A stretch of 39,670 bases of DNA from a virus. The notes under the pieces are model-generated. The model did no database searches. It was not told the origin of the DNA and was given only the letters and a program-made list of their open reading frames with translations. This document shows positions 455-35,089 of this stretch, in pieces (within the stretch, counting starts at the first letter, position 1; each line of letters begins with the position of its first letter). The stretch is taken from positions 1-39,670 of IMG/VR virus record IMGVR_UViG_3300020159_000809; one strand, given 5' to 3'. The translations under genes were made by a program, and so were the position numbers.

Positions 455-1891
455 TCAAGCATCGTCCGAAAGATCTAGGACATCTTGGTACATGGTATTG
501 GCTTGGTGGGCGTTTAATCCCCCACTGGACAACTGCCTAGTGACATCTCCAGCACTCTGACCAAACAAACGACTCAGCACTCCACTACTTCCACGAGCCT
601 CTACTTCTAAGCGAACCATATCCCGTGTATCACTTATGTTCCTAAACTTCTCAACAAGATTAAAGAGTCTGTCTACTTCCCCTGAAAGTGCTGGGTCAAG
701 ACCTTGTCCTTCTAGTTCTTCAGCAAAGCGAGCAAACAAAACACGACTCACTTGCATCTCCAACATTGCCCTCAATGCGGCTTGTAATTGATCCTTAGTT
801 TTGATCTCTACAGGTAACTTAAAACCACACTCAGAATCTTGTCGGAAAGCAGGGCAACGAGCGCTGAGATAGCAACTATTGCATTGACGTAAAAGGTTGC
901 CTTTATACGAAATTACTGGTATCTTTTCAACGCCTAATTCTTCAGATTCTTCATCACCAGCAAGGGTTTGAGCGAGTTGTGGAGTGAATTGCTCAATACC
1001 AATAACAGGTAGTAATACTTTGTCATCCTCGTGCCGCATCTCAGCACCTCGGATACTAATACTTGACCCCCTCGGTGCCACATTTGGAACGGAAGGCACA
1101 TTGCTGGGATAGTTACTATCCGTGACACTTTCTGATAGACCAATTTCTTGCTCATCATCAAGTTCTTGAGGCTCATAGACCCCAAAAGTTGTCTTTTCCC
1201 ACGCTTGCCAAGACACAATCGCAAGCCTTGCTACTTCAGAGTTATCATCTTGAACAATGGCATCATAATCAATACCTAGTTTAATGATGTCGTTTCGGTG
1301 TTTCTTTCGGGCAGAATCCTTCTGCTGGGCTGGGTATCGGCGTAGCCCATGACCATCCCAAACTTGAGTCTCACCATAGCGAACGGCAGATGTCCAAGAA
1401 CCCACAATTACTGAATCCCAAGGTAGCGAGGCAATAACATCGGGCTTGGACGACAACCCAATCAATTTAGCATCCCACCTTTGGACTAAGTTTCTAATGC
1501 GGGATATCGTTTTGCCATTAACTGCTTTGTCGCTGATTGCTGCTCTGCCATTCTTTTGGCATAACCACGCAAGTCGTTCCATATCGTCTGGGTCATTCCA
1601 TACAGGAATGTAGCGTTCACCTAGCCAAGTACCGTCATAATCGGGTCTTCCTATGACCATTGCAATGTTTTCGTAGTGTTGTCTGACAAAATCGTCATAG
1701 CGACTGACATCCTCATCAGTCTCCGAGGTGTACAAAACGATGTCTCCAGCAGGGAACATTACAGACAAATCAAGTTCTTTTTTCTTAGGAATTGGTAAAT
1801 GAGTGAGATTTACTGCATACTGCGTAACACCTGATGCCTGAAGCAGTGACCTGTGGGATGCCTTTTCAGCATTGGCAAAATAGACTTTCAT
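455..1891 (-). CDS. Unknown 478-residue protein with N-terminal alternating strand/helix domain and Cys cluster
   Basis: The first ~230 residues alternate short hydrophobic strands and helices (MKVYFANAE, YAVNLTHL, DIVLYTSE, IAMVIGRPDY, YIPVWNDPD, KLIGLSS, VIVGSW), which suggests a Rossmann- or TIM-barrel-like enzyme. A distant link to phage tRNA-guanine transglycosylase/DpdA-like barrels is possible but unproven. A disordered linker (~residues 250-300) is followed by a Cys cluster at ~340-360 (CNSC, RCPAF, ECGF) that could hold zinc or an Fe-S cluster. A helical C-terminal third completes the protein. The start overlaps the HAD-like gene stop as ATGA, so the two are probably co-translated. 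Confidence 0.75.
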   Translation of the reverse strand: MKVYFANAEKASHRSLLQASGVTQYAVNLTHLPIPKKKELDLSVMFPAGDIVLYTSETDEDVSRYDDFVRQHYENIAMVIGRPDYDGTWLGERYIPVWNDPDDMERLAWLCQKNGRAAISDKAVNGKTISRIRNLVQRWDAKLIGLSSKPDVIASLPWDSVIVGSWTSAVRYGETQVWDGHGLRRYPAQQKDSARKKHRNDIIKLGIDYDAIVQDDNSEVARLAIVSWQAWEKTTFGVYEPQELDDEQEIGLSESVTDSNYPSNVPSVPNVAPRGSSISIRGAEMRHEDDKVLLPVIGIEQFTPQLAQTLAGDEESEELGVEKIPVISYKGNLLRQCNSCYLSARCPAFRQDSECGFKLPVEIKTKDQLQAALRAMLEMQVSRVLFARFAEELEGQGLDPALSGEVDRLFNLVEKFRNISDTRDMVRLEVEARGSSGVLSRLFGQSAGDVTRQLSSGGLNAHQANTMYQDVLDLSDDA

Positions 1892-2869: not shown

Positions 2870-3049
2870 CTACTCTTTTTCGTCATCCCAAGTATCATCA
2901 TGAATACCCAATGCGTCTAAAAACTCTCTTGCTTGGTCCATAATGTTACTACTGCTAGGGTGGAATTGCTGTCGCTCGCCACGCATCGCCATACGCTTGT
3001 CCCTTGCTTTTTGCGCCTTTTCAAAACTATAGATTTTTGCGTCAGGCAT
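2870..3049 (-). CDS. Small hypothetical protein, 59 residues
   Basis: The ATG at 3047-3049 overlaps the stop of the preceding gene as TAATG, the same coupling seen throughout this region. The protein has a basic N-terminal half (KAQKARDKRMAMRG) and an acidic C-terminus ending DDTWDDEKE. It looks helical with a central QQFHPSSSNIMDQAREF segment. No known family is recognised. The coupling and the otherwise gene-free 200 bases support it being real. Confidence 0.6.
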   Translation of the reverse strand: MPDAKIYSFEKAQKARDKRMAMRGERQQFHPSSSNIMDQAREFLDALGIHDDTWDDEKE

Positions 3050-3252
3050 TACAGACTTATTGTTGGGTCAGAAACCTCAGCCATAGGGCTTTTTGGGGAA
3101 ACACCATACTGTGATTGAAGCACCATTTGACGCTTCATAGAAGGTCCAGACTCCACTACACCGCCACGATCTGGGGTGAGATTCTTAAATGCGCCATCAG
3201 TAATACCTAGGCGAAGGTCATTGTTTTGGGAACGAGATGAGTTTACAGCCAT
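3049..3252 (-). CDS. Small hypothetical protein, 67 residues
   Basis: A polar, Ser/Asn/Gly-rich protein with no predicted membrane segment and a likely disordered start (MAVNSSRSQNNDLRLGITDG). It lies between a His-rich 97-residue protein and the 59-residue protein, and its stop overlaps the next start. It belongs by position and composition to the set of small minor proteins. No motif beyond low complexity is recognised. Confidence 0.55.
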   Translation of the reverse strand: MAVNSSRSQNNDLRLGITDGAFKNLTPDRGGVVESGPSMKRQMVLQSQYGVSPKSPMAEVSDPTISL

Positions 3253-3268
3253 GATCTATTTTACCACC

Positions 3269-3562
3269 TTACTCGCCCATATGGGAATAGTGTTCATCTC
3301 CAGTAAGTCGGCGGTACCACGAACCTTGATGTTGTACATCATCATAAATGTGCTTACCACCAGAATCAACCATGCTGTCTGGGAGTGCTCTACGGGCTTT
3401 TCCGTGCATATCATTTGCCATACGCCATGCATCTGTGTGAGCAGTCTCTCCACGAAAGGTGTGAAAATGCTTGCCTTCTTTAGTTACAACCCCTGTCATA
3501 CCGTCATCAGTATGCCCATGACCAATACCTAAACCTAAATATGTATGATTCCAATTTTCCAT
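3269..3562 (-). CDS. His-rich small protein, 97 residues
   Basis: Eleven or more His residues are spread along the chain (GIGHGHTDDG, KHFHTF, DEHYSHMG), which could bind a metal or simply mark a composition bias. It begins two bases after the stop of the RGG-box protein, with no clear ribosome-binding site, so translational coupling is likely. An alternative overlapping frame on the same strand (3256-3453) is shorter and poorly placed. Function unknown, and it probably belongs to the minor-protein set. Confidence 0.55.
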   Translation of the reverse strand: MENWNHTYLGLGIGHGHTDDGMTGVVTKEGKHFHTFRGETAHTDAWRMANDMHGKARRALPDSMVDSGGKHIYDDVQHQGSWYRRLTGDEHYSHMGE

Positions 3563-3564
3563 AA

Positions 3565-4377
3565 TTACTTCTTTCCAACCTTGGATGAACCAATTTTAGC
3601 AGGCTTGCCAAGAGATGCTCCAGTAACTGAACCAAATGAAATCGCTGGTGAGCCTGGCTGACCTGGACCTTGCTGTGTTGCTGGTGGTGCACTTGCTCCA
3701 GCGTAGTTATTTACTTGTCTAGCATCTGTATTATTTGCTTGAATGGTGGGGGCGCTAGTATTGCCACTATAAGTTGTAGCACCTGCTACAGCAGGCTTTT
3801 GCTTTGGTCCACGAGCAACTGGAGTTCGTGCACCTGATTTGTTTTGCTGGTCTCTAGTTTTTCTAGCCGCTTGTTGTGCAGGAGTAACTACCCTTTTAGG
3901 TTTTGTGCTTTGTTGTCCTTGCGGTGCAGGTTGCACTTGTGGTGCGGCAGCACCACCACTGTTATTATTAAACGCATTTTGGTTCTGCCCACCTAAACCT
4001 TGTTGGTTGTATGTGTTCCCAGAACCTTCACCAAAACCGCCACCTACAAAAGTGGTGTTGTTGCTGTTTGTATCACCACCATCATTTCCACCACCTCTAC
4101 CTCCACGCCTGCCTCCACGCCTGCCTCCACCCATTCCCCTGTTACCATAAAGACTGATCGGGCCTTGACCGTAGAGTGCACTTTGCATTAAATTTGCGCC
4201 AAATCCACCTTGTGTACCTGCGGCGTTGTTTGGCATATTGGAAGCACTGAAGTCTTTTTGTACACCTGCGGTTGGTGCTTGGAACCTTGATTGCTGAGGC
4301 GCTTCTCCACGTTCCATTCTTCCCGTGACGTTATACAACGGCTGTTGGTTGACTCCACCAAATCTATTTTCAGGCAT
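3565..4377 (-). CDS. RGG-box, Q/N/G-rich disordered protein, 270 residues
   Basis: The protein is low in complexity throughout. Residues ~80-97 are an RGG/RG box (MGGGRRGGRRGGRGGG), a motif class known from RNA- and G-quadruplex-binding proteins. Residues 124-142 carry NQQGLGGQNQNAFNNNSGG, shared with the 505-residue protein at 5964-7481. Residues 211-220 carry TIQANNTDAR followed by NNY, shared with the tape measure at 32402-35089. The C-terminus is basic (SSKVGKK). A structural or scaffolding role is inferred from composition and from the link to the tape measure, and no enzymatic domain is visible. The ATG has no clear ribosome-binding site. Confidence 0.75.
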   Translation of the reverse strand: MPENRFGGVNQQPLYNVTGRMERGEAPQQSRFQAPTAGVQKDFSASNMPNNAAGTQGGFGANLMQSALYGQGPISLYGNRGMGGGRRGGRRGGRGGGNDGGDTNSNNTTFVGGGFGEGSGNTYNQQGLGGQNQNAFNNNSGGAAAPQVQPAPQGQQSTKPKRVVTPAQQAARKTRDQQNKSGARTPVARGPKQKPAVAGATTYSGNTSAPTIQANNTDARQVNNYAGASAPPATQQGPGQPGSPAISFGSVTGASLGKPAKIGSSKVGKK

Positions 4378-4383
4378 GGACTA

Positions 4384-4704
4384 TTATACCCATAGACTTT
4401 GCATAGAGTATCGCCCTGATCCACTGAACTGATCATCTGTCATTTGTGCTCGTTGCATCATGACTGGAGCACCTGATACCCATGAACGGTAGTTAGGGCT
4501 AAAACGGTCAATTGACAGAACATCTGCCACGCCAAGTTCTTGCTTAACAAACCCTCTACGCTCAGGCATTAGTTGCTGAGGAACTGTAGGGCGAATTGCA
4601 CGAATAGTCGCAGGATCAGAAATAGCAGAATCTAGGGCAATGTCAACCAGCATCTCTTCACGAGATTGCCAAGGTCTACGAGTGCGGAAGTTATCTACAG
4701 GCAC
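4384..4704 (-). CDS. Hypothetical 106-residue protein
   Basis: The start is a GTG overlapping the upstream stop as TAGTG. The protein is Arg/Met/Pro-rich with several short motifs (RTRRPWQSREEM, RPTVPQQLMPERRGF, FSPNYRSWVSGAP) but no recognisable domain. The segment DIALDSAISDPATIRAIRP looks helical. It sits in the block of small proteins between the GPYLN-type protein and the RGG-box protein. Function unknown. Confidence 0.65.
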   Translation of the reverse strand: MPVDNFRTRRPWQSREEMLVDIALDSAISDPATIRAIRPTVPQQLMPERRGFVKQELGVADVLSIDRFSPNYRSWVSGAPVMMQRAQMTDDQFSGSGRYSMQSLWV

Positions 4705-5174
4705 TAGTCCTCAAATTTCTGTGGTGCTTCTCTTCTTTTTGAGAAATCATGCATTTCTTCTGGTCGCATAATAACACCAGGAGTGCTACCAGTCCGAGGT
4801 AGGAGAGGACTCTGATTAGTGTTAGGTAGGCCTGCGTTTCCTGTAAGGTAATGTCTATCTTGAGCAGATAAATGTACGCTATATATCCGATGAACTGAAC
4901 CTAAGTGTTCTGTATTGTCAGGGTCTAATCCAATCTCTTGTGTAATGTTTCTAAGGTCAGTTATATACTTTTTCATACCAGCGAGACCAATTGATGAGAA
5001 AGAACCGTGTTTCTTCTTCATTTGATCAGGTCCTGGCATTGCCGAAAATCGCATATGCTTAATCGCATGCTGGTAGGCTTTTCCGTCTGGAAAGTCTTCA
5101 TCTCCAGGGCTTGGTCCAACTTTACCATTAAGGTAGGGTCCACTTACTGGATTCATGCGATGATCGTGTGCCAA
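4704..5174 (-). CDS. GPYLN-motif protein, 156 residues
   Basis: The N-terminus (M-x3-HR-x4-SGPYLNGK) matches that of the 76-residue protein at 8607-8837 (M-x3-HR-x4-DGPYLNTK). The paralogue alignment supports the TTG at 5172-5174 as the start, even though an ATG lies six codons further in. Later segments include a basic-helical stretch (MKKYITDLRNITQEIG) and GVIMRPEEMHD, whose IMRP resembles the 101-residue protein at 8848-9153. It probably belongs to the minor-protein family of this region. No enzymatic signature. Confidence 0.7.
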   Translation of the reverse strand: MAHDHRMNPVSGPYLNGKVGPSPGDEDFPDGKAYQHAIKHMRFSAMPGPDQMKKKHGSFSSIGLAGMKKYITDLRNITQEIGLDPDNTEHLGSVHRIYSVHLSAQDRHYLTGNAGLPNTNQSPLLPRTGSTPGVIMRPEEMHDFSKRREAPQKFED

Positions 5175-5177
5175 TAG

Positions 5178-5450
5178 TTACAGCCAGTCTTTTGGATCTG
5201 TTGAATTTGACCACTGGTTGCCGATGGGGTCAACTAAAATGTTTCCAGTGCCTTTTCTTTTTGGCTGAAAGTTGTCCCCATAATGACCGTCTGTACCTTC
5301 TGGTGTTTGGTATGAAGAATCATCAGCAGATGTTGGGCGAGGTATTCTTTGGCTCGGAATGTTACCAGAGTCCTCTAAAGATCTAGCAGCGCACTGTGCA
5401 CGATCAACCCTGCGGTTAGGGTGATGCTCTGTACGTTCTCCGTTAGCCAT
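5178..5450 (-). CDS. Tandem paralogue 1 (RT..HPNRRVDR family), 90 residues
   Basis: This is the last transcribed of three consecutive small proteins sharing an N-terminal motif: Met, two or three small residues, R-T/R, two residues, (H/D)(P/S)(N/R)R(R/K)V. Here it reads MANGERTEHHPNRRVDR. The rest is polar and disordered with Gly, Asp and Ser. The start overlaps the preceding stop as TAATG. The shared head with diverging tails suggests a common docking motif. Function unknown. Confidence 0.65.
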   Translation of the reverse strand: MANGERTEHHPNRRVDRAQCAARSLEDSGNIPSQRIPRPTSADDSSYQTPEGTDGHYGDNFQPKRKGTGNILVDPIGNQWSNSTDPKDWL

Positions 5451-5713
5451 TAGTAACCTCCATCATCATAGTCGTAACCGTCATACGAACCAATATCATC
5501 GTTTGGTTCATGCATATTCTCATCTGCTTCCGAATAACTTTCAGCAATACCAGCAGCATCAATACCATTCCACATTGCTTGTTGTTCAGCAATATCTCTT
5601 TGAACACGAGGGTCATCACCAAAGCCAACACCGATTTCAGCGTACCTGTTACCTAATGCTTCTTTAGTAACCTTACGGTTTGAATGATGTCGGGTATCGT
5701 CACCTCTAGGCAT
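5450..5713 (-). CDS. Tandem paralogue 2 (RT..HSNRKV family), 87 residues
   Basis: The N-terminus MPRGDDTRHHSNRKVTK matches the neighbouring proteins on both sides. The C-terminus is strikingly acidic and Tyr/Gly-rich (residues ~70-87, DDIGSYDGYDYDDGGY), which predicts disorder. TAATG overlaps join it to both neighbours, so the three are translated as a unit. No known domain. Confidence 0.65.
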   Translation of the reverse strand: MPRGDDTRHHSNRKVTKEALGNRYAEIGVGFGDDPRVQRDIAEQQAMWNGIDAAGIAESYSEADENMHEPNDDIGSYDGYDYDDGGY

Positions 5714-5964
5714 TAGTCTCTCTTCTCTCTTTCGCTAAAACCTGAATCCATACCCTGTACGCCTTCAGCATCAGATGTCTTATCATTGCCCCAATGTTCT
5801 GGTGCTTCTGGATTCTGGTCATGTGTTTCGTTTGCTCCACACATTTCGCAATGCGCTTCTTTGCCATAATTAGGGCTAGTCATTGCAGCCATGTTTGCAA
5901 TATCAAATGCGTATCGGTCAACTCTACGCCTTGGATCAAACTCTGTGCGGTTACCTTTAGGCAT
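5713..5964 (-). CDS. Tandem paralogue 3 (RT..DPRRRVDR family), 83 residues
   Basis: MPKGNRTEFDPRRRVDR at the N-terminus is the clearest version of the shared motif. Unlike its paralogues it has a Cys pair, HCEMCGANETH (residues ~39-49), which with nearby His could bind zinc. The C-terminus is charged and polar. It is first transcribed of the three and overlaps the 505-residue gene's stop as TAATG. Function unknown. Confidence 0.65.
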   Translation of the reverse strand: MPKGNRTEFDPRRRVDRYAFDIANMAAMTSPNYGKEAHCEMCGANETHDQNPEAPEHWGNDKTSDAEGVQGMDSGFSEREKRD

Positions 5965-7481
5965 TACGGCTTTTCCGTTCGTGGATTCTTTGGCTTAGAT
6001 GTGGTTGGGCGACCACCACGAGATGCGTTTTGTGCTCGTGGGTGTGTCTGTGCTGCTGGACCACCTGTTGAAAGAACATTTGCACTTGGATTTGGAGATG
6101 AAGCCTTGCCTGCTGTACTGGCTACTGTTGGACCACTGTTGATAGTTGCGCCTTTAACATTGCCATAAGTGTTGCCATCACCAGTATTTGCTTGAATGGT
6201 GGCATAGTTGTTATTGATTGAACCACTACCACTACTTGCTGGAGATGTACCACCTGCATTGTCATTGAAAGCATTAAAGTTTTGTCCACCCATTCCTTGT
6301 TGGTTTACGGTATGCCCACCTTGAAAGTGTTGTGACCGTGTTGAAGTAGGTGCAGATCCTGCTGTTGGAGTAGGTCCCATTGATGGTGGTGGTCCTGCTG
6401 GAGTTGGTCCTGTTGTTGATGGTGTTTCTCCTGTTGGAGTAGGTCCCATTGATGGTGGTGGTCCTGCTGGAGTTGGTGACCCTTTAGCCGAGTCATGTCC
6501 ACCAAGAAAACCACGAAGGCGAGCACCTAAACTTGGTTTAGCAGGTTTGTCTCCTGTAGCAGTTGAAGTTGACTTAGTAATACCAGCGTCTTCATCAGAC
6601 CAATCATGGAATTCAGGTCCACCTCTGCCACGACCTTCAGGTGCTGTCGTTGGGTCAAATCCACGCAAACCATTTTCACGGTCTCTACGAATGCGATTCA
6701 TAGCGGCTGTACCTTTTGCTTGGCTCCTTGTACCAGTCACTGGTTCTGACTTACCTGTCTTGTCTGTATTCAGGATGTATGGTCCACCAGACTTTTTACC
6801 TTTTGGCATACCACCATCATCATTGACTACTGATTCGGTCTCTGGACCTTTACTAATATTTACACCACCATCTAAAGCAACAGGTGCTGTTTCGGTTTTC
6901 CGTTTTCCTTCAGCAGCCTGTTCCTCGGACATACCTGGTCCTGGAGTAAACCCTGGAGAAGATTCTTTAAACAATGATCTTGCTTCAGCAGAATCTTTGG
7001 CTACTTGTTTGCCTTCATCAGAATTCAAATAGTCTTGGTTTTCTTTTTCGGCTGCATCAGTAATAGCATCCATCTTCTTTGTGCCCTTAAACCTACCCAA
7101 GTCAACAGTGTTGCTTGAACTATCTTTACGAGGAACTTGTGCAGAAGAAGAAGGACCAGAGTTCTTTGGTTCTTTAGGCTTCATTTCTGTCTTAGGCATT
7201 TCTTTTGCTTTAGGCTTCTTGTCTGCTTTAGGCTTCTTACCAGTTTCTTTTAGCACGGTTCCTAGTTCCTTGGGGGATGGTGGTTTAGTATCACTTTCTT
7301 TTGCTGCTACCTCTTCGTCAGACAATTCTTTGTAACTTCCACCAGCAGCAATAACATCAGCCTTTACTTTGTCTTTTTCTTTATCATTCATCTTGGCAGA
7401 ATACCTTTTTTTGGCGGCTTTATATGACTTTGTCGTCATCTCTGGTTTCCACTTAAATTCGTTTGGATCTTTCGCTGCCAC
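5964..7481 (-). CDS. Large disordered Lys/Pro/Gly-rich protein, 505 residues
   Basis: The N-terminal ~100 residues are Lys-rich (repeats like KPKADKKPKAKE), and the middle is Pro/Thr/Gly-rich with two copies of a PTPAGPPPSMGPTPT repeat (encoded at 6362-6477). The C-terminal ~120 residues contain NQQGMGGQNFNAFNDNAGG (393-411) and ATIQANTGDG (~427-436), counterparts of motifs in the RGG-box protein, and the first also of the tape measure linker style. A GTG start follows GGAG at seven bases. No folded enzymatic domain is visible. A virion-associated or scaffolding role is inferred, not shown. Confidence 0.7.
   Translation of the reverse strand: MAAKDPNEFKWKPEMTTKSYKAAKKRYSAKMNDKEKDKVKADVIAAGGSYKELSDEEVAAKESDTKPPSPKELGTVLKETGKKPKADKKPKAKEMPKTEMKPKEPKNSGPSSSAQVPRKDSSSNTVDLGRFKGTKKMDAITDAAEKENQDYLNSDEGKQVAKDSAEARSLFKESSPGFTPGPGMSEEQAAEGKRKTETAPVALDGGVNISKGPETESVVNDDGGMPKGKKSGGPYILNTDKTGKSEPVTGTRSQAKGTAAMNRIRRDRENGLRGFDPTTAPEGRGRGGPEFHDWSDEDAGITKSTSTATGDKPAKPSLGARLRGFLGGHDSAKGSPTPAGPPPSMGPTPTGETPSTTGPTPAGPPPSMGPTPTAGSAPTSTRSQHFQGGHTVNQQGMGGQNFNAFNDNAGGTSPASSGSGSINNNYATIQANTGDGNTYGNVKGATINSGPTVASTAGKASSPNPSANVLSTGGPAAQTHPRAQNASRGGRPTTSKPKNPRTEKP
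6362..6477. repeat. Two 47-base direct repeats inside the 505-residue gene
   Basis: Positions 6362-6408 and 6431-6477 are near-identical 47-base copies with a 69-base period (23 codons, in frame). They encode the PAGPPPSMGPTPT units. Between the copies the sequence differs, so this is a decayed or partial tandem repeat. Copy number may vary between relatives. Confidence 0.85.
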
Positions 7482-7526
7482 TGGGTGCTCCTCTAAGGAT
7501 TGAGATGTATATACTTTACCAGTTAA

Positions 7527-8027
7527 TCAACGCCAAGAAGGGCGAAGAGAACTAAGTTTGGCTCGGCGTTCAGCGTCAATGTATTCAGCATTCTGACGCT
7601 CGTCTACACGGGGGATACCTTTAGGTCCTACTTTGCCATCATTAGTCAAAACAACTGGGGCTGCTCCAGGGGGGGCAAACTTCTGACCCCTTGACTCATA
7701 AGCAATGCCTGTCCAGAGGTTGAACTCATCGGGCCAGATGTAGTCACCTGCGTTAATGCGCTCACCCTTGTGCACACCACGAGAATACTGACGAGCATTC
7801 ATACGGCTCAGTGTTCCTGTAATTTTGTCCTGTCTACGGTTGGAAGACATTGTCCCAAGGTATCCGTCTGGATACGTTGTGTCTGGCATAGAACGATATC
7901 CAGCCAGTTGGTAATCCTTGTTATTACGGAATACTGGGGCAGGACCAAACTGAGGCTGTGATCCAGCGCCTGGTGCTTCCGAAGGAGAGTTCCAGTTGTT
8001 AAAGGATGTTTGTGAGGAGCCAGCCAT
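7527..8027 (-). CDS. Conserved-looking minor protein, 166 residues
   Basis: The N-terminal 35 residues are disordered (Ser/Gln/Pro/Gly). The central part has an ordered feel: DTTYPDGYLG, RQYSRGVHKGERI and DYIWPDEFNLWTGI. Such segments resemble minor proteins in actinobacterial phages, though I cannot name the family. The C-terminus is basic. The start overlaps the ParB-like stop as TGATG, with AAGGA six bases upstream. A virion or capsid-associated role is plausible by context. Confidence 0.7.
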   Translation of the reverse strand: MAGSSQTSFNNWNSPSEAPGAGSQPQFGPAPVFRNNKDYQLAGYRSMPDTTYPDGYLGTMSSNRRQDKITGTLSRMNARQYSRGVHKGERINAGDYIWPDEFNLWTGIAYESRGQKFAPPGAAPVVLTNDGKVGPKGIPRVDERQNAEYIDAERRAKLSSLRPSWR

Positions 8028-8473
8028 CAGTCATCCTTTCCTTTAATCGTAGGGAAATCTTCTGTAAAATGTACAACTGGAATGTCAACACCAGCCTTTA
8101 TTGCTGCAAATGCTCGGTGGTGACCATCACTAATCATACCATTTTGGCGAAAAGCAATAACGGGCTTTACAACACCGTGTTCTTTCATTGACGAAATTAG
8201 ATCATCTATAGGATAATCAACGCTTGTCTGAAAGTCTGGGTGTAAGTCCAATTTGTCCCAGTCAGTATGGTATATATTTGGTTTGTATGATTGTTTAAAC
8301 TGTTCTGGACTTATATGCCCAATTGCCCTAACACTTACAGTATCCCCACGATTCCATATTTTTGTTTGATACGGAGTATTAGTTTCTAGGCTTTTATCAA
8401 AGTTAGTACGTTCGTAATTAGGTAACCTGGATAGGTAAGAACTAACTTTCTTCTTCTTACCACCATCAGCCAC
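8027..8473 (-). CDS. ParB/sulfiredoxin-fold protein, 148 residues
   Basis: Residues ~105-135 contain GMISDGHHRAFAAIKAG followed by IPVV, the signature of ParB N-terminal/Srx-like domains, whose members bind nucleotides (CTP in true ParB) or act as nucleases. The preceding VVKPVIAFRQNG strand-turn fits too. No helix-turn-helix follows, so this is not a full partition protein. A lysine-rich N-terminus (KKKK) may contact DNA. The start is a GTG that overlaps the previous stop as TAGTG. It sits among minor proteins rather than with a ParA, arguing against plasmid-like partitioning. Confidence 0.8.
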   Translation of the reverse strand: MADGGKKKKVSSYLSRLPNYERTNFDKSLETNTPYQTKIWNRGDTVSVRAIGHISPEQFKQSYKPNIYHTDWDKLDLHPDFQTSVDYPIDDLISSMKEHGVVKPVIAFRQNGMISDGHHRAFAAIKAGVDIPVVHFTEDFPTIKGKDD

Positions 8474-8607
8474 TAGACGTTTCCAGCCATGCCTTGATTA
8501 GCAGTAGTAACAAACCCACCAGCGGAACCAGCCACAGCAGTAATAGGGCGTGGTTTTTCCTTCTTAACAACTTTTTCTTTCTTTACTTTCTTCTTTATAA
8601 CAACCAT
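8473..8607 (-). CDS. Small basic protein, 44 residues
   Basis: The first 20 residues alternate Lys with Val/Glu (MVVIKKKVKKEKVVKKEKPR), and the rest is Gly/Ala/Thr-rich. Its ATG overlaps the stop of the 76-residue gene as TAATG, and its stop overlaps the ParB-like start as TAGTG. Both junctions fit the local pattern and support a real gene. A nucleic-acid-binding tail is possible from charge alone. Confidence 0.6.
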   Translation of the reverse strand: MVVIKKKVKKEKVVKKEKPRPITAVAGSAGGFVTTANQGMAGNV

Positions 8608-8837
8608 TACTTCCACCTCATTTTGTCATCTGGATCCATTGGGTCTTTTGCTTGAGCATCACTTTCCCAATCAAAAGGTCTATCAGGTTTATCAGGTTTA
8701 CCACCTGTTTTGGTTGGTGGTTTCTTTGGTGGTTTCTTTCCACCACCACCTGTGGATGTGCGAGCACCACCCTTTTTCCACTCTTTAGTATTGAGGTAAG
8801 GACCATCAATCTCGTCTAGTCGGTGAGTTAGTGGCAT
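8607..8837 (-). CDS. GPYLN/FDWE-motif protein, 76 residues
   Basis: Two shared motifs meet in this protein. Its N-terminus (MPLTHR, then DGPYLNTK) matches the 156-residue protein at 4704-5174. Its DRPFDWESDA near residues 54-63 matches DRPFDWEVDA in the 101-residue protein upstream. Between them is a Gly/Lys/Pro linker (TGGGGKKPPKKPPTKTGG). The whole chain appears disordered, as if made of two docking motifs on a flexible tether. Function unknown. Confidence 0.65.
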   Translation of the reverse strand: MPLTHRLDEIDGPYLNTKEWKKGGARTSTGGGGKKPPKKPPTKTGGKPDKPDRPFDWESDAQAKDPMDPDDKMRWK

Positions 8838-8847
8838 AACTCAAATG

Positions 8848-9153
8848 TTAATAACCGTTGCGAAGAGTATTTTCAATAGTACTTGCACCATCAGAACCAA
8901 TATCATGTTGTACATTTACAATAATCTTACCTGCACCTGTTGGTCGTGATGGGCGCATAATGCCATGTGGGGGTGTTGGGTCGGCTTCTGTTGGGACAAG
9001 TTCTGGTGCATCTACTTCCCAATCAAATGGGCGATCTGAATGAGCACCACCTGCGGGGTGAGCCTTGTATGCAGAATCACGCTTGGCAAACTTACTACGA
9101 CCTGCGTACTCGTTAATGTCTGTAATAGTTGCGTTTTTACGAATGCGTCCCAT
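8848..9153 (-). CDS. FDWE-motif protein, 101 residues
   Basis: Contains DRPFDWEVDA (residues ~41-50), shared with the 76-residue protein, and GIMRPSRP, whose IMRP recurs in the 156-residue protein. The N-terminus is basic (MGRIRKNATITDINEYAGRSKFAKR) and the C-terminal 25 residues look ordered (KIIVNVQHDIGSDGASTIENTLRNGY). Overlaps the 197-residue gene's stop as TAATG. Function unknown. Confidence 0.65.
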   Translation of the reverse strand: MGRIRKNATITDINEYAGRSKFAKRDSAYKAHPAGGAHSDRPFDWEVDAPELVPTEADPTPPHGIMRPSRPTGAGKIIVNVQHDIGSDGASTIENTLRNGY

Positions 9154-9746
9154 TAGATTTTTGGTAACTCCCCAGCCTTGCGCTTCCTGCCGTAGTCGGC
9201 AAGGTCGGCTTTGGCTCGTGCTTCTGATGCTTCCCGATTGACTTTTGCTTTATAGTTCTTATCATCTTGTTTTATTTCTGCTTTGCTACCACCCTGAATA
9301 TAGGCTGTAGCAGAACCACCAGCACCTGACATTTCCCCCCATTGGTCTTCATCTTTCTTTGCTCGTGTATACGAATCAGCACGTTCCATAGCACCCATTG
9401 GATCCTTACTGTATTCCTTATTAACTTTTTTAATGGCTTTTGCTTTACTTGCTTTATCTTTCAAGATTGCTTTACCTTCAGGAGACTTTGGCTCGTGCCA
9501 AGTTTCAACTGTGCTACCAATTTTGATACGCTCTCTTGGCAGTTCTGGCATTCCCATTTTACGGCGGTCAGCGTTTTGGGAATCTTCTCGTGCTGTTTTG
9601 GCTTTGATGCGCTCAGTCTGCGCTGCCGAAGTATTACCACTATCGTCACGAACTGTGTGAGTGTCTGGTGCTGCGCCTCTTCGTGGCTTAAGTTTTCCAC
9701 TGTTAGCGTAAGGCGTAATGCCCTTGACTCTGTCTAGCATGCCCAT
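9153..9746 (-). CDS. Highly charged Lys/Ala/Glu-rich protein, 197 residues
   Basis: Begins MGMLDRVKGITPYANSGKL, which loosely resembles the HR..GPYLN.K heads in this region. The remainder is Lys/Arg/Asp/Glu/Ala-rich with long helical stretches (KAILKDKASKAKAIKKVNKEY; EASEARAKADLADYGRKRKAG). It looks like a charged single helix or coiled coil with disordered joints. GAGG lies six bases upstream of the ATG. It may bind nucleic acid or act as an internal virion protein, both inferred from composition only. Confidence 0.65.
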   Translation of the reverse strand: MGMLDRVKGITPYANSGKLKPRRGAAPDTHTVRDDSGNTSAAQTERIKAKTAREDSQNADRRKMGMPELPRERIKIGSTVETWHEPKSPEGKAILKDKASKAKAIKKVNKEYSKDPMGAMERADSYTRAKKDEDQWGEMSGAGGSATAYIQGGSKAEIKQDDKNYKAKVNREASEARAKADLADYGRKRKAGELPKI

Positions 9747-9748
9747 AA

Positions 9749-10039
9749 TTACCTCACAACTGGTTTAAAGGAAATAGCGGAAATGCTCTCTCCGTTCTCA
9801 CCTATAATATCATCAAACCCAACGATAAAGCAAAGATCTATACCACGAGGGGCGACAAACCCACGAGCGATAGCACACGCTTTAGCACCTTGGTTTACTG
9901 CACTTGCTCCAATGGCACGAATCTTAGGCAAGTGCCCTGCAACTACCGACCTAGCAAGGATGGAACCCACGCTTTGGGGGTTGCTTGATCCTGATACTTT
10001 TAGAACGTCTTCAACTTTAGCATTTAGTTCCTGGGACAT
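9749..10039 (-). CDS. spoVS: SpoVS (stage V sporulation protein S) family protein
   Basis: This 96-residue protein closely follows the SpoVS pattern: VLKVSGSSNPQSV, then IRAIGASAVNQGAKA, then AIARGFVAPRGIDL. SpoVS proteins are small Alba-like folds known from spore-forming bacteria and Deinococcus-Thermus, thought to act as nucleic-acid-binding regulators. Length matches the family. AGGAG precedes the ATG by six bases. It sits at the junction between the replication/nuclease operon and the minor-protein set. It may compact or regulate DNA or RNA during infection, an inference. Confidence 0.9.
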   Translation of the reverse strand: MSQELNAKVEDVLKVSGSSNPQSVGSILARSVVAGHLPKIRAIGASAVNQGAKACAIARGFVAPRGIDLCFIVGFDDIIGENGESISAISFKPVVR

Positions 10040-30663: not shown

Positions 30664-32402
30664 TTATTAACCGTTAACTTGGTCATACCCATTGCCTGGT
30701 CATAGGTTATACCAGTACTCTTCATTTTAATTTTTTGTGGAAGTGCTATATTTCCTAGTCCTGCTCGTGAGCAGTACGTAGTTATTTCTAACTCAACATT
30801 AAATTTGTCTTGATTAAATGGCCTAGGGGAAAGTTCACTTGCAAGTTCCCATGTCCATTTTGCGTCACTTCCTTCGGATCCAAACCTATATGTTGGGTTT
30901 TTTCCATAGACCATTACGTCTTGTTTCCACATTCCACGGTCTACATCAACTTTATATTTAATTGGGTGATCATTAATAGATATTACTAATGGACTAGCAG
31001 CAGTTCCATACTGCGAGTAGTTTGCTGAAGAAGTATCTGTAGGTGCACCTGCTGTGTACGTTAGTGTAGATGCGCTTGTTGCATTGCCCCCACCAACAGT
31101 TCTAAAATTTGATGCATTGTTTACATAAGAATGCCACGATATTTTTATTGTTCCGCTAAAAGTAAACACTAGTCCGCCACCCGCCTCTTTAGAAGATCCA
31201 ACGGTCTTATAAAAGGCAGCACCCTTATTTGAAACAATTATTGTAAAGTTTATATTTTTTACTTTTTGTTCTCCTTTTGATAAAAAAGAAGACAATTTCA
31301 TATCACCACCTGAACCCTGTTTCCAATCGGCTGATTTAATAAAATCAGCCATTCCTGCAATAGTGGCTTCCTGTAGTTCTCGTTCTGCTGTTCCTTCTGG
31401 TGCAAAATCCGCAGTACCCTCGCCACCAGTATTAGTATTTGGATCAATCGTAATATCAGTTAGAAATGTCTTGGCTTGAGTAAACCCAACGTACAGTGCT
31501 TGCATCGTGACATATACTTCGCAGACAGTAGGTACAAACCCTCGTGAGTACTTTTGAAAATCTACTTGACTGCTTGTAACAAAGCCTTCAACCATCATCC
31601 AATCGCTAAACACAACACGGATAGGTTGAGGGACTAAGAAGGCTTTGTTTCCTAAGTTGCTAGTAAAGTCAGACATACGCTTAGTATCGTAAACATTTTT
31701 TGTTACTGTTTTGGTTGCATCGGTTGGGTCAACTACGGTGACTTGTGTAGGAGGCATCAATAGAGCGTTGGCTTTTGAAGCGTTAACAATGTCTTGAGAC
31801 AGTCCCACACCCAGGATGTCATCTAGCACCATAATGTCAGCAAGAACCCCAATTGCAGTTACCCAGGCGGGATTGTATTCTTTATCAATATAGATTTGGC
31901 TTGCAAGTTCAGCGGCTGAACTTGTGTTTTTTGCTGGCTTTCCTTTTACAAGTTTATCCCCAGCAAGATACTTACCAGAATAAACTTCTGCTTCTCTATT
32001 AAACCTTAATCTAAATGCAAATGTGGCTTGACCAGGAATTGGTTGTGTTAGTTGGTTTGGTTCTTGGTTAAAGAAAAATTGCATACTTGTATCAGATTGA
32101 ATACTTCTAGTAATTGTTTCTGGGTTAAACTGAAAATTACATTTTAAATTTCCAAGCGTTGTTCCTGCTCCTGGAGTAGAACCTCCAGATGTACGCTTAT
32201 AGAATTCAGTTAAACGACGTACATAACCACGTTGGATAGTAGTTGCTCCAATAGTGTCACGGGCAACTCCCTCCACACCTGGACTTGGGTATAGGAATAA
32301 TGGGTTACTCCGATCTTTTGCAGGTGGTGGAGCAAGTTTTGCTGCGGCGTTTGGATTCGGTGTTACCCTGGGTCCTGGTGCTGGCCTTGGTCCTGGTGGC
32401 AT
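30660..32402 (-). CDS. Baseplate/tube-related protein, 580 residues
   Basis: A Pro-rich N-terminus (MPPGPRPAPGPRVTPNP) precedes GNLKCNFQFNPETITRSIQSD, like the contractile-injection-system tube-domain proteins next to LysM proteins. Further strands and a YNPAW helix follow. The location between tape measure and LysM fits an adaptor at the tube-baseplate joint. The family is not certain. Overlaps the tape measure stop as TAATG. Confidence 0.7.
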   Translation of the reverse strand: MPPGPRPAPGPRVTPNPNAAAKLAPPPAKDRSNPLFLYPSPGVEGVARDTIGATTIQRGYVRRLTEFYKRTSGGSTPGAGTTLGNLKCNFQFNPETITRSIQSDTSMQFFFNQEPNQLTQPIPGQATFAFRLRFNREAEVYSGKYLAGDKLVKGKPAKNTSSAAELASQIYIDKEYNPAWVTAIGVLADIMVLDDILGVGLSQDIVNASKANALLMPPTQVTVVDPTDATKTVTKNVYDTKRMSDFTSNLGNKAFLVPQPIRVVFSDWMMVEGFVTSSQVDFQKYSRGFVPTVCEVYVTMQALYVGFTQAKTFLTDITIDPNTNTGGEGTADFAPEGTAERELQEATIAGMADFIKSADWKQGSGGDMKLSSFLSKGEQKVKNINFTIIVSNKGAAFYKTVGSSKEAGGGLVFTFSGTIKISWHSYVNNASNFRTVGGGNATSASTLTYTAGAPTDTSSANYSQYGTAASPLVISINDHPIKYKVDVDRGMWKQDVMVYGKNPTYRFGSEGSDAKWTWELASELSPRPFNQDKFNVELEITTYCSRAGLGNIALPQKIKMKSTGITYDQAMGMTKLTVNK

Positions 32403-35089
32403 TAGTTACTCCTCAATAGTTCTTTTTTAAGTTCTTGCTCCATAATTTGGGCAATCTCTTGCGCCATTTTTCTTGCATCTTGTTGTGTATTACCAGAGGA
32501 AGTTACATATATGTTAGGAGCAATTGTAACATTAGTTGCTCCACCAACTTTTACGTTAGTCTCTCCACCCCGTGTTGGAGCGCCTGCCATTGGGTCGCCA
32601 CTACCCATTCCTGGAAGCATTCCAGCATCAGTCCAAGTACTTCTTTCTTTAAATATGCCTACTCCGTCATCGGTACCCTTTGCCTCCATAGTGGTACCAT
32701 CACCGAGGCTGATTGCTACGTGACCAATTTTGCTATCTTCGTTGCGACTAAATAACAAAGCCCCCCTAGTTTTCTTAGCGTCTTCTACTGTCATTCCATC
32801 TGAATTTTTATGTGTGTACTTGTATAATCCCTCAGCGTTTGTATTGCTAAATCCTGGAGCGCTATATCCAGATTGGATAGCAGCCCAAATAACTAAACCA
32901 CTACAGTCAAATGCGGTTGGATCTGGGTTGGTGTTATCACGCCCAGTGGCATATACGTACTTATCACCTTGCGATTTTAAAGCCTGTTGCACGAATTTGT
33001 CGGCCTTACTAATTGCTTCAGCACTTGGACCAGAACTTGAAGTGACAGGTGTGGAACCTGGAAGTTCTGCGGTTCCTATTGGTGTAGGGGATGTGGAGGA
33101 CATAGAACTAACATCACCAGTACCCTGATTCATTGCTTCAATTCTCTGAGCAAGTGTTATTGGACCAGGACCACCAGCAAATGACCCATTCTTTGCTGCA
33201 AAGTATCGGTCACCAATAACTGAACCAGGAGGAGTACCTAAACTAGCCCCTGCTGGTCTCCCCCACGGAGATCCTTGGTTTTCATATTCTCCACGTGAAT
33301 CAGGTAATTCTGCTGGTTGTACGTGCCAAGGCTCACCATACTGTCCACCAAAAGACTTTAATCCATACTTGTCAGCATTCTGTGCAACCCAGTCAATATC
33401 ACCAACAAGGTCTGCGGCGAGTCCCAACTCGTGCATAGAACTTCCTGGTGGGGCTACAGTTGCGCCACTGACGTGTCGGTACTGTTCCCCATTCCAAGCA
33501 GCATCTCCCATAGAGCCATCAGTAACCTTACGATACCTAGACAAGAATAAATTCTTTTGATCAGTTTCTGATCTCATTCCTTCGCCTAACCCAACATTAG
33601 GGTTAGCCGCAAACATGCTTTTAAGTCTTTGCTTAAAGGTTGTATTTAGTTTAGAAAAACTGGAATCTGAAGAAAGATCTTCCAGTGATATTCTTGCACT
33701 ACCATACCCTCTTGGAATAGTAGATCCTTTATTTTTATCATTACTTACAGGGTCACCAGCCATCAGGGTTCCACCCAACATCATTAGTGGTACCCCTGCC
33801 GCAGAACCAATACCTGTCATTGATGCAACAGCCCCAAGACCAAAAGAAAGTGCTCCAAGTCCTTTTCGGATCATTCCACCCTTACTAGATACCCCTACTC
33901 CAATAATTCCAGATAGTTTTTCTTCAAGTCCACCCAAGGCTCTAGTTACTGCTTGGATTCCCTTTTCCATATCAGCGTAGTTGTCTGCTTGACGCTTGTA
34001 GAAGTTTTCATCCCTTTCTTCTTTTGTGCGAGCAGTTTCCTCTGCTTGAGTAGCAAAGTTGTCTTCAATGCCCATCATCTTTCTTTGTGCTTTGTTGGAA
34101 GGGTCGTACATTCCCTTCCCGCCCTTCTTCTGATATGCAATATTAGAATCGGCGTAGTCAAGAACCATATCAATCATGTCTGGTGGGACACCCATTGATT
34201 CCAATCGTGTTCTAGTTACTGACCCAGATTGACGTGCTCCCTTAAGCACTCCAGCATTAGTTAAACCAGAATTCTTTGTAATGTCTTTGATGACTTGATC
34301 AATTCCACGTTGTTCTCCACCCACTCCATAGATACCTGTTCCAAGCATCATGGTCATACGGTTGTTTACTGGGGCAGATCCTAGTGTTTGAACCATGTTT
34401 GCCATGTCACCAGTGGAGTATGAATACCCAGACATGGCACGAAGTCCAGCAATACCACTTGCTTGTTTAGATGCTTCAATTCCTGTGCTCGCTTGGAGCG
34501 AAAGGAGTGTATTGATTCCACCATATCCAAGACGTTGATTTTGGAGTGGCTCTCGCATCTGGTGGTAATACTGGCTATTTGTAATACCTTTATTTTGCTG
34601 GTAGTAAACACCAAGTTTATCTACGGAAAGAGATCTTTCGTAGTTGTTATTAATACGATTGTCTAGTGCTTGAATTCCTGCGTTAAGCACTTGAAGGGCA
34701 GCAGCAGCAGTTTGACCTTTAATGCCGCCACCAGCACCGCCTCCACCTCCACCTCCACCGCCTCCAGAACCCTGCCCACCAAAGTAGTTATTAATTACTC
34801 GGGCATCTGTATTGTTTGCTTGGACAGTGGGGGAATTGGCTGAACCTAGTGGTAATTCAATACCTCCAGCAGTCTTGCTTTGTCCCGCTGTACCTGTTAA
34901 CCCACCTAGTTTTTGGATGCCTTGAAGAGTTTTAAGTGTCTTATCTAATTGGGTATTGATTTTTGTTAGGTTTTTACTAAGCCATTCAAAATCACCACGA
35001 ACGCCTTTAACGCTTTTAGCCAACTTATCAATGGATTCCGTATCAAGTTTAAACTTGGTACGAAGATCTCCTAGGTTTTTCTCTGCCAT
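32402..35089 (-). CDS. Tape measure protein with M15 peptidase and NlpC/P60 domains
   Basis: Residues 1-60 are a coiled coil. A linker with QANNTDAR (90-97) and a poly-Gly stretch follows, then a hydrophobic/helical middle. Residues ~465-600 form a VanY-type M15 peptidase: H553, D560 and E586-x2-H589. Residues ~690-825 are NlpC/P60: C729 in FDCSGLV and H790 in GHVAISLGDG. The C-terminal tail (DARKMAQEIAQIMEQELKKEL) is typical of tape measures. The protein would set tail length and open peptidoglycan during entry. AGGAG precedes the ATG. Confidence 0.9.
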   Translation of the reverse strand: MAEKNLGDLRTKFKLDTESIDKLAKSVKGVRGDFEWLSKNLTKINTQLDKTLKTLQGIQKLGGLTGTAGQSKTAGGIELPLGSANSPTVQANNTDARVINNYFGGQGSGGGGGGGGGGAGGGIKGQTAAAALQVLNAGIQALDNRINNNYERSLSVDKLGVYYQQNKGITNSQYYHQMREPLQNQRLGYGGINTLLSLQASTGIEASKQASGIAGLRAMSGYSYSTGDMANMVQTLGSAPVNNRMTMMLGTGIYGVGGEQRGIDQVIKDITKNSGLTNAGVLKGARQSGSVTRTRLESMGVPPDMIDMVLDYADSNIAYQKKGGKGMYDPSNKAQRKMMGIEDNFATQAEETARTKEERDENFYKRQADNYADMEKGIQAVTRALGGLEEKLSGIIGVGVSSKGGMIRKGLGALSFGLGAVASMTGIGSAAGVPLMMLGGTLMAGDPVSNDKNKGSTIPRGYGSARISLEDLSSDSSFSKLNTTFKQRLKSMFAANPNVGLGEGMRSETDQKNLFLSRYRKVTDGSMGDAAWNGEQYRHVSGATVAPPGSSMHELGLAADLVGDIDWVAQNADKYGLKSFGGQYGEPWHVQPAELPDSRGEYENQGSPWGRPAGASLGTPPGSVIGDRYFAAKNGSFAGGPGPITLAQRIEAMNQGTGDVSSMSSTSPTPIGTAELPGSTPVTSSSGPSAEAISKADKFVQQALKSQGDKYVYATGRDNTNPDPTAFDCSGLVIWAAIQSGYSAPGFSNTNAEGLYKYTHKNSDGMTVEDAKKTRGALLFSRNEDSKIGHVAISLGDGTTMEAKGTDDGVGIFKERSTWTDAGMLPGMGSGDPMAGAPTRGGETNVKVGGATNVTIAPNIYVTSSGNTQQDARKMAQEIAQIMEQELKKELLRSN

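Follow-up and report, generated by a model that had tools for sequence, protein, structure and literature searches.

This report concerns a block of small genes (positions 2870-10039) in a 39.7-kb linear piece of a virus record (IMG/VR IMGVR_UViG_3300020159_000809; GC content 43%), hereafter called the window, i.e., the whole stretch of 39,670 nucleotides (nt) that was analyzed. Two disordered proteins of the block, b4 and b10, share short motifs with each other and with the tape-measure-like protein of the same phage, and these motifs covary: their spelling is common to the partners inside a genome and differs wholly between lineages, and their length ranges from ~20 to >40 residues between phages. 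We tentatively propose that b4 bridges the tape measure and b10 by pairing like motif with like. The trio overlies a wider conserved cassette, coherent and apparently undescribed, in which small proteins carry N-terminal tags that are interchangeable on one body. The open reading frames (ORFs) of the block are named b1-b16 plus SpoVS, and g3 and TGT are genes downstream of b2; W denotes the window, and G- and L-numbers denote relatives' records and loci.

Motifs matched between b4, b10, and the tape measure

The first clue to the pairing was a BLAST match that linked the block to the tape-measure gene, which lies ~25-31 kb from the b4 and b10 genes. In the window, motif 1 reads SGNTYNQQGLGGQNQNAFNNNSGG in b4 and GGHTVNQQGMGGQNFNAFNDNAGG in b10, and motif 2 reads APTIQANNTDARQVNNYAG in b4 and SPTVQANNTDARVINNYFG in the tape measure; b4 holds both motifs here and in several other lineages. 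Relatives use other spellings, such as GSVINDASSANAFQ, GAVINDTSSNNAFQ, and GSVINDASAANAIQ in b4, b10, and the tape measure of G005, respectively. The spelling QTATNNSANAIGAG is found in both b4 and b10 of G009, with QTATSAAQNAIASG in its tape measure, and G007 has NTSANVNNAPQIYAPKN in b4 and NTSANAISAPQIYAPRN in the tape measure. The motif of G012 spans 45 residues and is 78% identical between b4 and b10, and further types occur in G010, G011, G015, L050, L161/L163, and L166. The composition resembles that of prions and amyloid signaling motifs (G 19%, N 17%, Q 7%), and the flanks are rich in K, E, and P.

The matches were scored on masked sequences, ungapped and with controls; gapped alignment was dominated by glycine runs. 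For the 200,000 permutations (floor 5e-6) we used roughly one genome per clade, with phylogeny not modelled; the set contains two related pairs (W and G003; L161 and L163), and the controls were taken from these genomes too. When b4 was compared with the last 200 residues of b10, the own pair was the row and column maximum in 12/12 cases (p<=5e-6), against p=0.07 for the remainder of b10. The N-terminal linker of the tape measure likewise matched its own b4 as row maximum in 7/11 cases (p<=5e-6), and a second tape-measure linker served as control (p=0.47). In scans of all ORFs with b4 as query, the two highest ranks went to b10 and the tape measure in W, G003, G005, G006, and G007, and b10 ranked highest in the remaining genomes with a long b10 (G009-G012 and G015). 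Shared motifs had already been noted in the preliminary description of this DNA, which was made from the letters alone. They turn out stronger than it claimed, both in the motif pairing and in hidden Markov models (HMMs) of the tags described below, but the network is not confined to the block, as it reaches the tape measure at 32402-35089. For that reason a tail role is favored over the genome packaging that the same description had considered.

The motifs change quickly and are nonetheless kept at the protein level. Among four sister phages, the N-termini of b4 are 86-96% identical, whereas the b4 motifs at the same locus are just 22-38% identical; the motif identity between b4 and b10 of the same genome is 55-78%. 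Matched b4-b10 segments differ synonymously at up to 17/35 identical residues (L052), with a nt identity of 0.57-0.75, and the segments matched between the tape measure and b4 have a nt identity of 0.62-0.82. Because of these many synonymous differences, the match goes beyond recent copying. They are also the reason to set aside the idea that the motifs are shared without any function, simply because low-complexity genes undergo gene conversion or repeat recombination with each other. The neighboring positions of b4 and b10 and the low complexity of the motifs would suit such an origin, but the third locus is distant (the tape measure, 25 kb), and the controls in other low-complexity regions were null, so that we regard it as highly improbable.

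A candidate bridge between the tape measure and b10

We propose that b4 bridges the tape measure and b10 by homotypic motif pairing, with a late role in the virion or in tail assembly; we hold this reading at slightly under an even chance. The heart of the cassette would be a three-protein set (tape measure, b4, and b10) in which b4 acts as adaptor, pairing its motif 2 with the N-terminal linker of the tape measure and its motif 1 with the C-terminal part of b10. Like motif would stack on like, probably by a short beta-arch or amyloid-like contact, so that the bridge would be specific to its own lineage, either while the tail assembles or at the tail's head-proximal end. The position of the hydrolase domains towards the C-terminus of the tape measure suggests that its motif-bearing N-terminus faces the head, away from the tip. 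Homotypic pairing would explain why partners match and why their spelling changes together, by drift or by jumps, as well as the richness of the motifs in G, N, and Q. The small proteins with interchangeable tags would be clients or cargo recruited by their tag, and b11, b5, b2, and SpoVS would form the invariant framework.

A broader reading, about which we are more doubtful, is that a hypervariable self-matching peptide code wires the tape measure to disordered adaptors and so keeps tail assembly, or an ejected complex, faithful to its lineage in co-infection. We know of no homotypic recognition code of this kind in viruses, nor did the literature searched describe one. Tape-measure proteins determine how long the tail becomes and probably enter the cell early, and for their N-terminal part we know of few partners. 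The ~eleven motif types, covarying over two or three proteins, amount to a ready-made specificity experiment, and such covariation offers a computational handle for finding interacting disordered proteins.

The motifs could also be docking peptides for one common third partner (a tail-assembly chaperone, a hub, the tube, or a host protein), being alike through fitting the same site and not through binding one another. This would account for similar motifs in three proteins and for their location in disordered linkers. However, motif length and spelling change wholesale where the neighboring protein parts are 86-96% identical; the docking site would need to keep pace, and no partner with such variation was found. 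We consider a third partner unlikely. Less likely still is a role in intracellular condensates or compartments, where tail assembly would be concentrated and the motifs would act as stickers: disorder, low complexity, motif valency, and the G/N/Q-rich motifs are in line with it, but the one-to-one matching exceeds what condensation requires.

With regard to homotypic pairing, the closest precedent is found in bacterial and fungal amyloid signaling pairs (BASS, sigma, and PP/RHIM, with NLRs and effectors), whose short terminal motifs are similar in neighboring genes and diverse between families (PMC8086366, PMC12261475). Within-pair similarity served to recognize these motifs in NLR systems (PMC8086366). 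In the same way, b4 and b10 are closely encoded proteins with a similar motif of 20-40 amino acids (aa), but the partners here are a phage tape measure and two disordered proteins, with no NLR or Bell-type effector. A Pfam scan of 20 motif segments gave no match. As similarity to the published peptides is not significant overall (see below), we do not claim membership in the amyloid signaling motifs, and cross-beta assembly is put forward as a candidate only. Chaperones of the tape measure (lambda gpG/gpGT type) resemble b4 in being tape-measure partners, a role proposed for b4; on the other hand, b4 and b10 are disordered, are not encoded adjacent to the tape-measure gene, and resemble its sequence.

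Several observations weigh against the proposed bridge. The tape measure-b4 match is weak or absent in G010, G015, and L050 despite a strong b4-b10 match, and it was not found in G013, G014, G017, and the Streptomyces phages (in G011, the N-terminus of the tape measure is truncated at the end of the contig). Only part of the family therefore has the trio. Moreover, the proximity of b4 and b10 means that joint replacement by recombination could add to their covariation. Compared with three published amyloid peptides, the motifs reached a mean z of 0.2-0.4, like the controls, with two isolated exceptions. Finally, AlphaFold2 (AF2) predictions gave no confident fold for two of the putative framework proteins, b11 and b5 (predicted local distance difference test, pLDDT, 49 and 51, the latter for a relative's copy).

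Interchangeable N-terminal tags

Two short N-terminal sequences recur in the block: tag 1 (MPxGxDTRHHPxRxV) is common to b7, b8, and b9, and tag 2 (MxxxHRxxxxxGPxLNxK) to b6 and b14. HMMs of the tags (20 and 19 residues) were run on 9,946 ORFs of 20 records, limited to the 60 N-terminal residues of each. About 42 ORFs carry tag 1 at E<1e-5, every one of them in the block and nearly all with the tag beginning at the N-terminus. The tag-2 set is smaller and, at good E-values, also confined to the block. Outside the block, three weak tag-1-like N-termini occur in a distant relative (G017), and searching full-length ORFs turned up few matches at internal positions, most of them in ORFs whose start was probably placed too far upstream.

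The bodies behind the tags are mostly unrelated, and the tags are interchangeable on one body: the TSTGGGGKKPPKKPPTKTGG body is preceded by tag 2 in three genomes (the window, G003, and G011) and by tag 1 in three others (G005, G006, and G007). In pairwise comparisons, 43% of the identical tag residues differ in their codon, and the tag is therefore conserved as protein and not as DNA; a function of the tags as DNA or RNA signals was set aside on the same grounds. The tagged small proteins offer a testable targeting-signal candidate in an abundant uncultured family of freshwater phages whose relatives include culturable Streptomyces phages.

The internal proteins of phage T4 carry capsid targeting sequences at the N-terminus of otherwise unrelated small proteins. 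The block, too, has a common N-terminal tag on diverse proteins, but its tag sequences differ, and two tag types interchange on one body. Taking this likeness further, the block could encode virion-internal proteins, packaged and ejected in T4 style, in which case the tags would be capsid- or tail-targeting sequences, the bodies cargo, and the motif trio secondary or a tail anchor. The N-terminal position of the tags, their unrelated bodies, the swapping by type, and the conservation at the protein level agree with this, and so do a second cluster that couples another N-terminal tag with GNAT, ADP-ribosyltransferase (ART)-like, and ParB-like bodies and the addition of Dps and DUF6496 proteins to the block of some relatives. 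Nevertheless, the proteins scanned include no recognizable T4-type prohead protease and no such cleavage signature, and nothing evident in the tag sequences connects them with the T4 signal; we judge a virion-internal block to be decidedly unlikely.

The second cluster of small genes (G003 35.0-43.4 kb; L074:15015-20000 and L075:1-3420; matching regions in G005-G007) joins its own recurrent N-terminus (like MAAHEHLNxxQF) to differing bodies. These include a GNAT acetyltransferase (4e-6) and a weak rifampin ART-like match (0.009), as well as ParB-like and further ART-like proteins recognized by eye. The ParB-like b12 of the window may be a visitor from this cluster, since its only distant match falls in that region of G007.

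A possible candidate for an unusual maturation protease is a proteasome-subunit-like protein (L073:5609-6244; PF00227, 3.5e-8), which a relative encodes in a putative head cluster, beside a portal-sized gene.

Gene content, conservation, and probable host of the cassette

Nearly all recognized genes of the window lie on the minus strand (Table 1). In the order of transcription, the tail sheath, tube, tape-measure-like protein (VanY and NlpC/P60), and baseplate genes are followed by replication genes (DnaC-like loader, DnaB, primase, helicase, DNA polymerase, UvsX, Cas4-type exonuclease, and Holliday junction resolvase), then by SpoVS, the block, and a queuine tRNA-ribosyltransferase-like (TGT) gene at the cassette end. 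The latter is linked to the block in relatives as far as the Streptomyces phages, and its product is possibly a 7-deazaguanine DNA-modification enzyme.

Table 1. Features of the block and its partners in the window, with the basis for each assignment
Feature	Positions	Strand	Basis
SpoVS-family protein, 96 aa, leads the conserved cassette	9749..10039	-	Pfam PF04232 1.5e-19
b16, 197 aa, charged, low-complexity, moderately conserved	9153..9746	-	43-55% in some relatives; FoldIndex -0.2
b15, 101 aa	8848..9153	-	DRPFDWExDA motif common with b14; GxIMRP common with b6 (by eye)
b14, 76 aa, tag-2 N-terminus (8781-8837) on TSTGGGGKKPPKKPPTKTGG body	8607..8837	-	Tag HMM
b13, Lys-rich ORF, 47 aa	8473..8616	-	Conserved in part among relatives
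b12, ParB N-terminal-like, 148 aa	8027..8473	-	PHROG ParB 3e-8
b11, 166 aa, most conserved block protein, family hallmark	7527..8027	-	At least 583 IMG/VR relatives
b10, 505 aa, disordered, matched motifs near C-terminus	5964..7481	-	Motif comparison
Motif 1 copy in b10, GHTVNQQGMGGQNFNAFNDNAGGTS	6243..6317	-	Motif comparison
Weaker motif 2-like copy in b10, NYATIQANTGDGNTYGNVKG	6150..6209	-	Motif comparison
b9, 83 aa, tag 1 at 5905-5964	5713..5964	-	Tag HMM 3e-10
b8, 87 aa, tag 1 at 5654-5713	5450..5713	-	Tag HMM 2.4e-11
b7, 90 aa, tag 1 at 5391-5450	5178..5450	-	Tag HMM 1.1e-11
b6, 156 aa, tag 2 at 5115-5174	4704..5174	-	Tag HMM 1.2e-10
b5, 106 aa, conserved core protein	4384..4704	-	In 50/50 long relatives
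b4, 270 aa, disordered, two matched motifs, proposed adaptor	3565..4377	-	Motif comparison
Motif 1 copy in b4, GNTYNQQGLGGQNQNAFNNNSGGAA, matching b10	3946..4020	-	Motif comparison
Motif 2 copy in b4, APTIQANNTDARQVNNYAG, matching tape measure	3697..3753	-	Motif comparison
b3, 97 aa, in some relatives	3269..3562	-	Relatives comparison
b2, 67 aa, conserved core (RSxNxDLxxGxxDGxxKxLTPxRGG)	3049..3252	-	50/50 long relatives; also BRock/LuckySocke
b1, 59 aa, short, charged, poorly conserved	2870..3049	-	Relatives comparison
TGT-like protein, cassette end	455..1891		phrog_887, 1.6e-35
Tape-measure-like protein, 895 aa, VanY and NlpC/P60 towards C-terminus	32402..35089	-	Pfam VanY 2.8e-6, NLPC_P60 7e-10; tail-module position
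Motif 2 copy in tape-measure N-terminal linker, SPTVQANNTDARVINNYFG	34778..34834	-	Motif comparison

The block is filled by 17 minus-strand ORFs, SpoVS included, which are mostly of low complexity. The about 16 genes counted in the preliminary description include several lineage-specific passengers (b12 and b3; b6-b9 and b13-b16 turn over). Its picture of mostly disordered proteins is borne out, as FoldIndex is negative for 11/17 block proteins and positive for tail, polymerase, and recombinase controls. The genes are also tightly packed: about half of the junctions are one-base overlaps (TAATG/TGATG/TAGTG), most others range from -10 to +16 nt, and there is a single 45-nt gap (7482-7526), though such tight packing is normal elsewhere in the phage too. 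The two folds named at the time were recovered. The SpoVS domain spans most of its protein (69.9 bits vs a cut-off of 24), and the N-terminal ParB fold of b12 (PHROG 3.2e-8 and 6.2e-8; sub-threshold in Pfam) is limited to residues 56-138, without further DNA-binding or dimerization domains. No ParA partner was found among the window proteins scanned. In agreement with the impression that the block does not resemble known head, tail, or lysis modules, 15/17 block proteins have no above-noise match in Pfam or PHROG. Nucleotide searches of the block against named phages and PDB sequence searches with b11 and b4 gave no match either.

Among the relatives, the block resolves into three layers. The core of SpoVS, b11, b5, and b2 is present in all 50 relatives with >=14 kb of sequence (g3 in 48/50, TGT in 46/50), with its gene order kept. 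Many columns of b11 are invariant across 10 aligned sequences, and b5 is 58-100% identical in most relatives and 31% in the most distant one. The fast layer consists of b4 and b10, both disordered and of low complexity, and the turnover layer (b3, b6-b9, and b12-b16) shows gains, losses, and shuffling. To the latter belongs b12, a passenger found in the block of the window and its near-identical relative only; ParB was dropped as a family marker, as an IMG/VR query gave just that one near-identical relative. The block of G007 (L109:3952-5172) holds genes for a ferritin/Dps-like protein (3.5e-16) and for a Lys-rich DUF6496 protein, which suggests that the block can take up nucleoid-type proteins.

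The closest described phages retain the core as well. BRock and LuckySocke have the same order as the window (SpoVS, b11, a b5-like ORF, b2, g3, a g2-like gene, and a TGT-like gene), with lysis genes between b2 and g3. They differ in that their disordered protein lacks a tape-measure match, for which LuckySocke gp188/BRock gp37 was rejected as a b4 analogue, and in that the stretches searched gave no tag-1 or tag-2 matches. The comparison across phages thus upholds a conserved block, whose core is syntenic in all 50 long relatives and in Streptomyces phages; the core was absent from none of the relatives with enough sequence to judge. We found no description of it in the open-access full-text literature searched. 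The earlier proposal of a candidate undescribed system therefore stands insofar as the block is coherent and conserved, with motif sharing as its defining feature; it needs amending in that the motif network extends beyond the block and passengers lie inside its coordinates.

The lysis-gene neighbors in Streptomyces phages and the link to the tape measure suggest late expression, and we read the block as a putative late accessory cassette of a family of freshwater actinobacterial myophages. The presence of a WhiB gene in a close relative, together with the Streptomyces hosts of the nearest named phages (BRock, LuckySocke, Alone3, GiJojo, and pSt2308), indicates an actinobacterial host. For actinophages of freshwater 'Ca. 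Nanopelagicales', WhiB has served as a marker gene (PMC10202952), and with a GC content of 43-46% in most relatives this makes a freshwater actinobacterium plausible. Contigs of ~92-99 kb are known from relatives, and in four of them the starting sequence recurs near the opposite end. Homologues of SpoVS and b11 also occur on a 412-kb contig of Streptomyces xanthochromogenes (L148:8602-10971), with small b5-b2-like ORFs between b11 and an endolysin, which may represent a related prophage or phage remnant in this genome.

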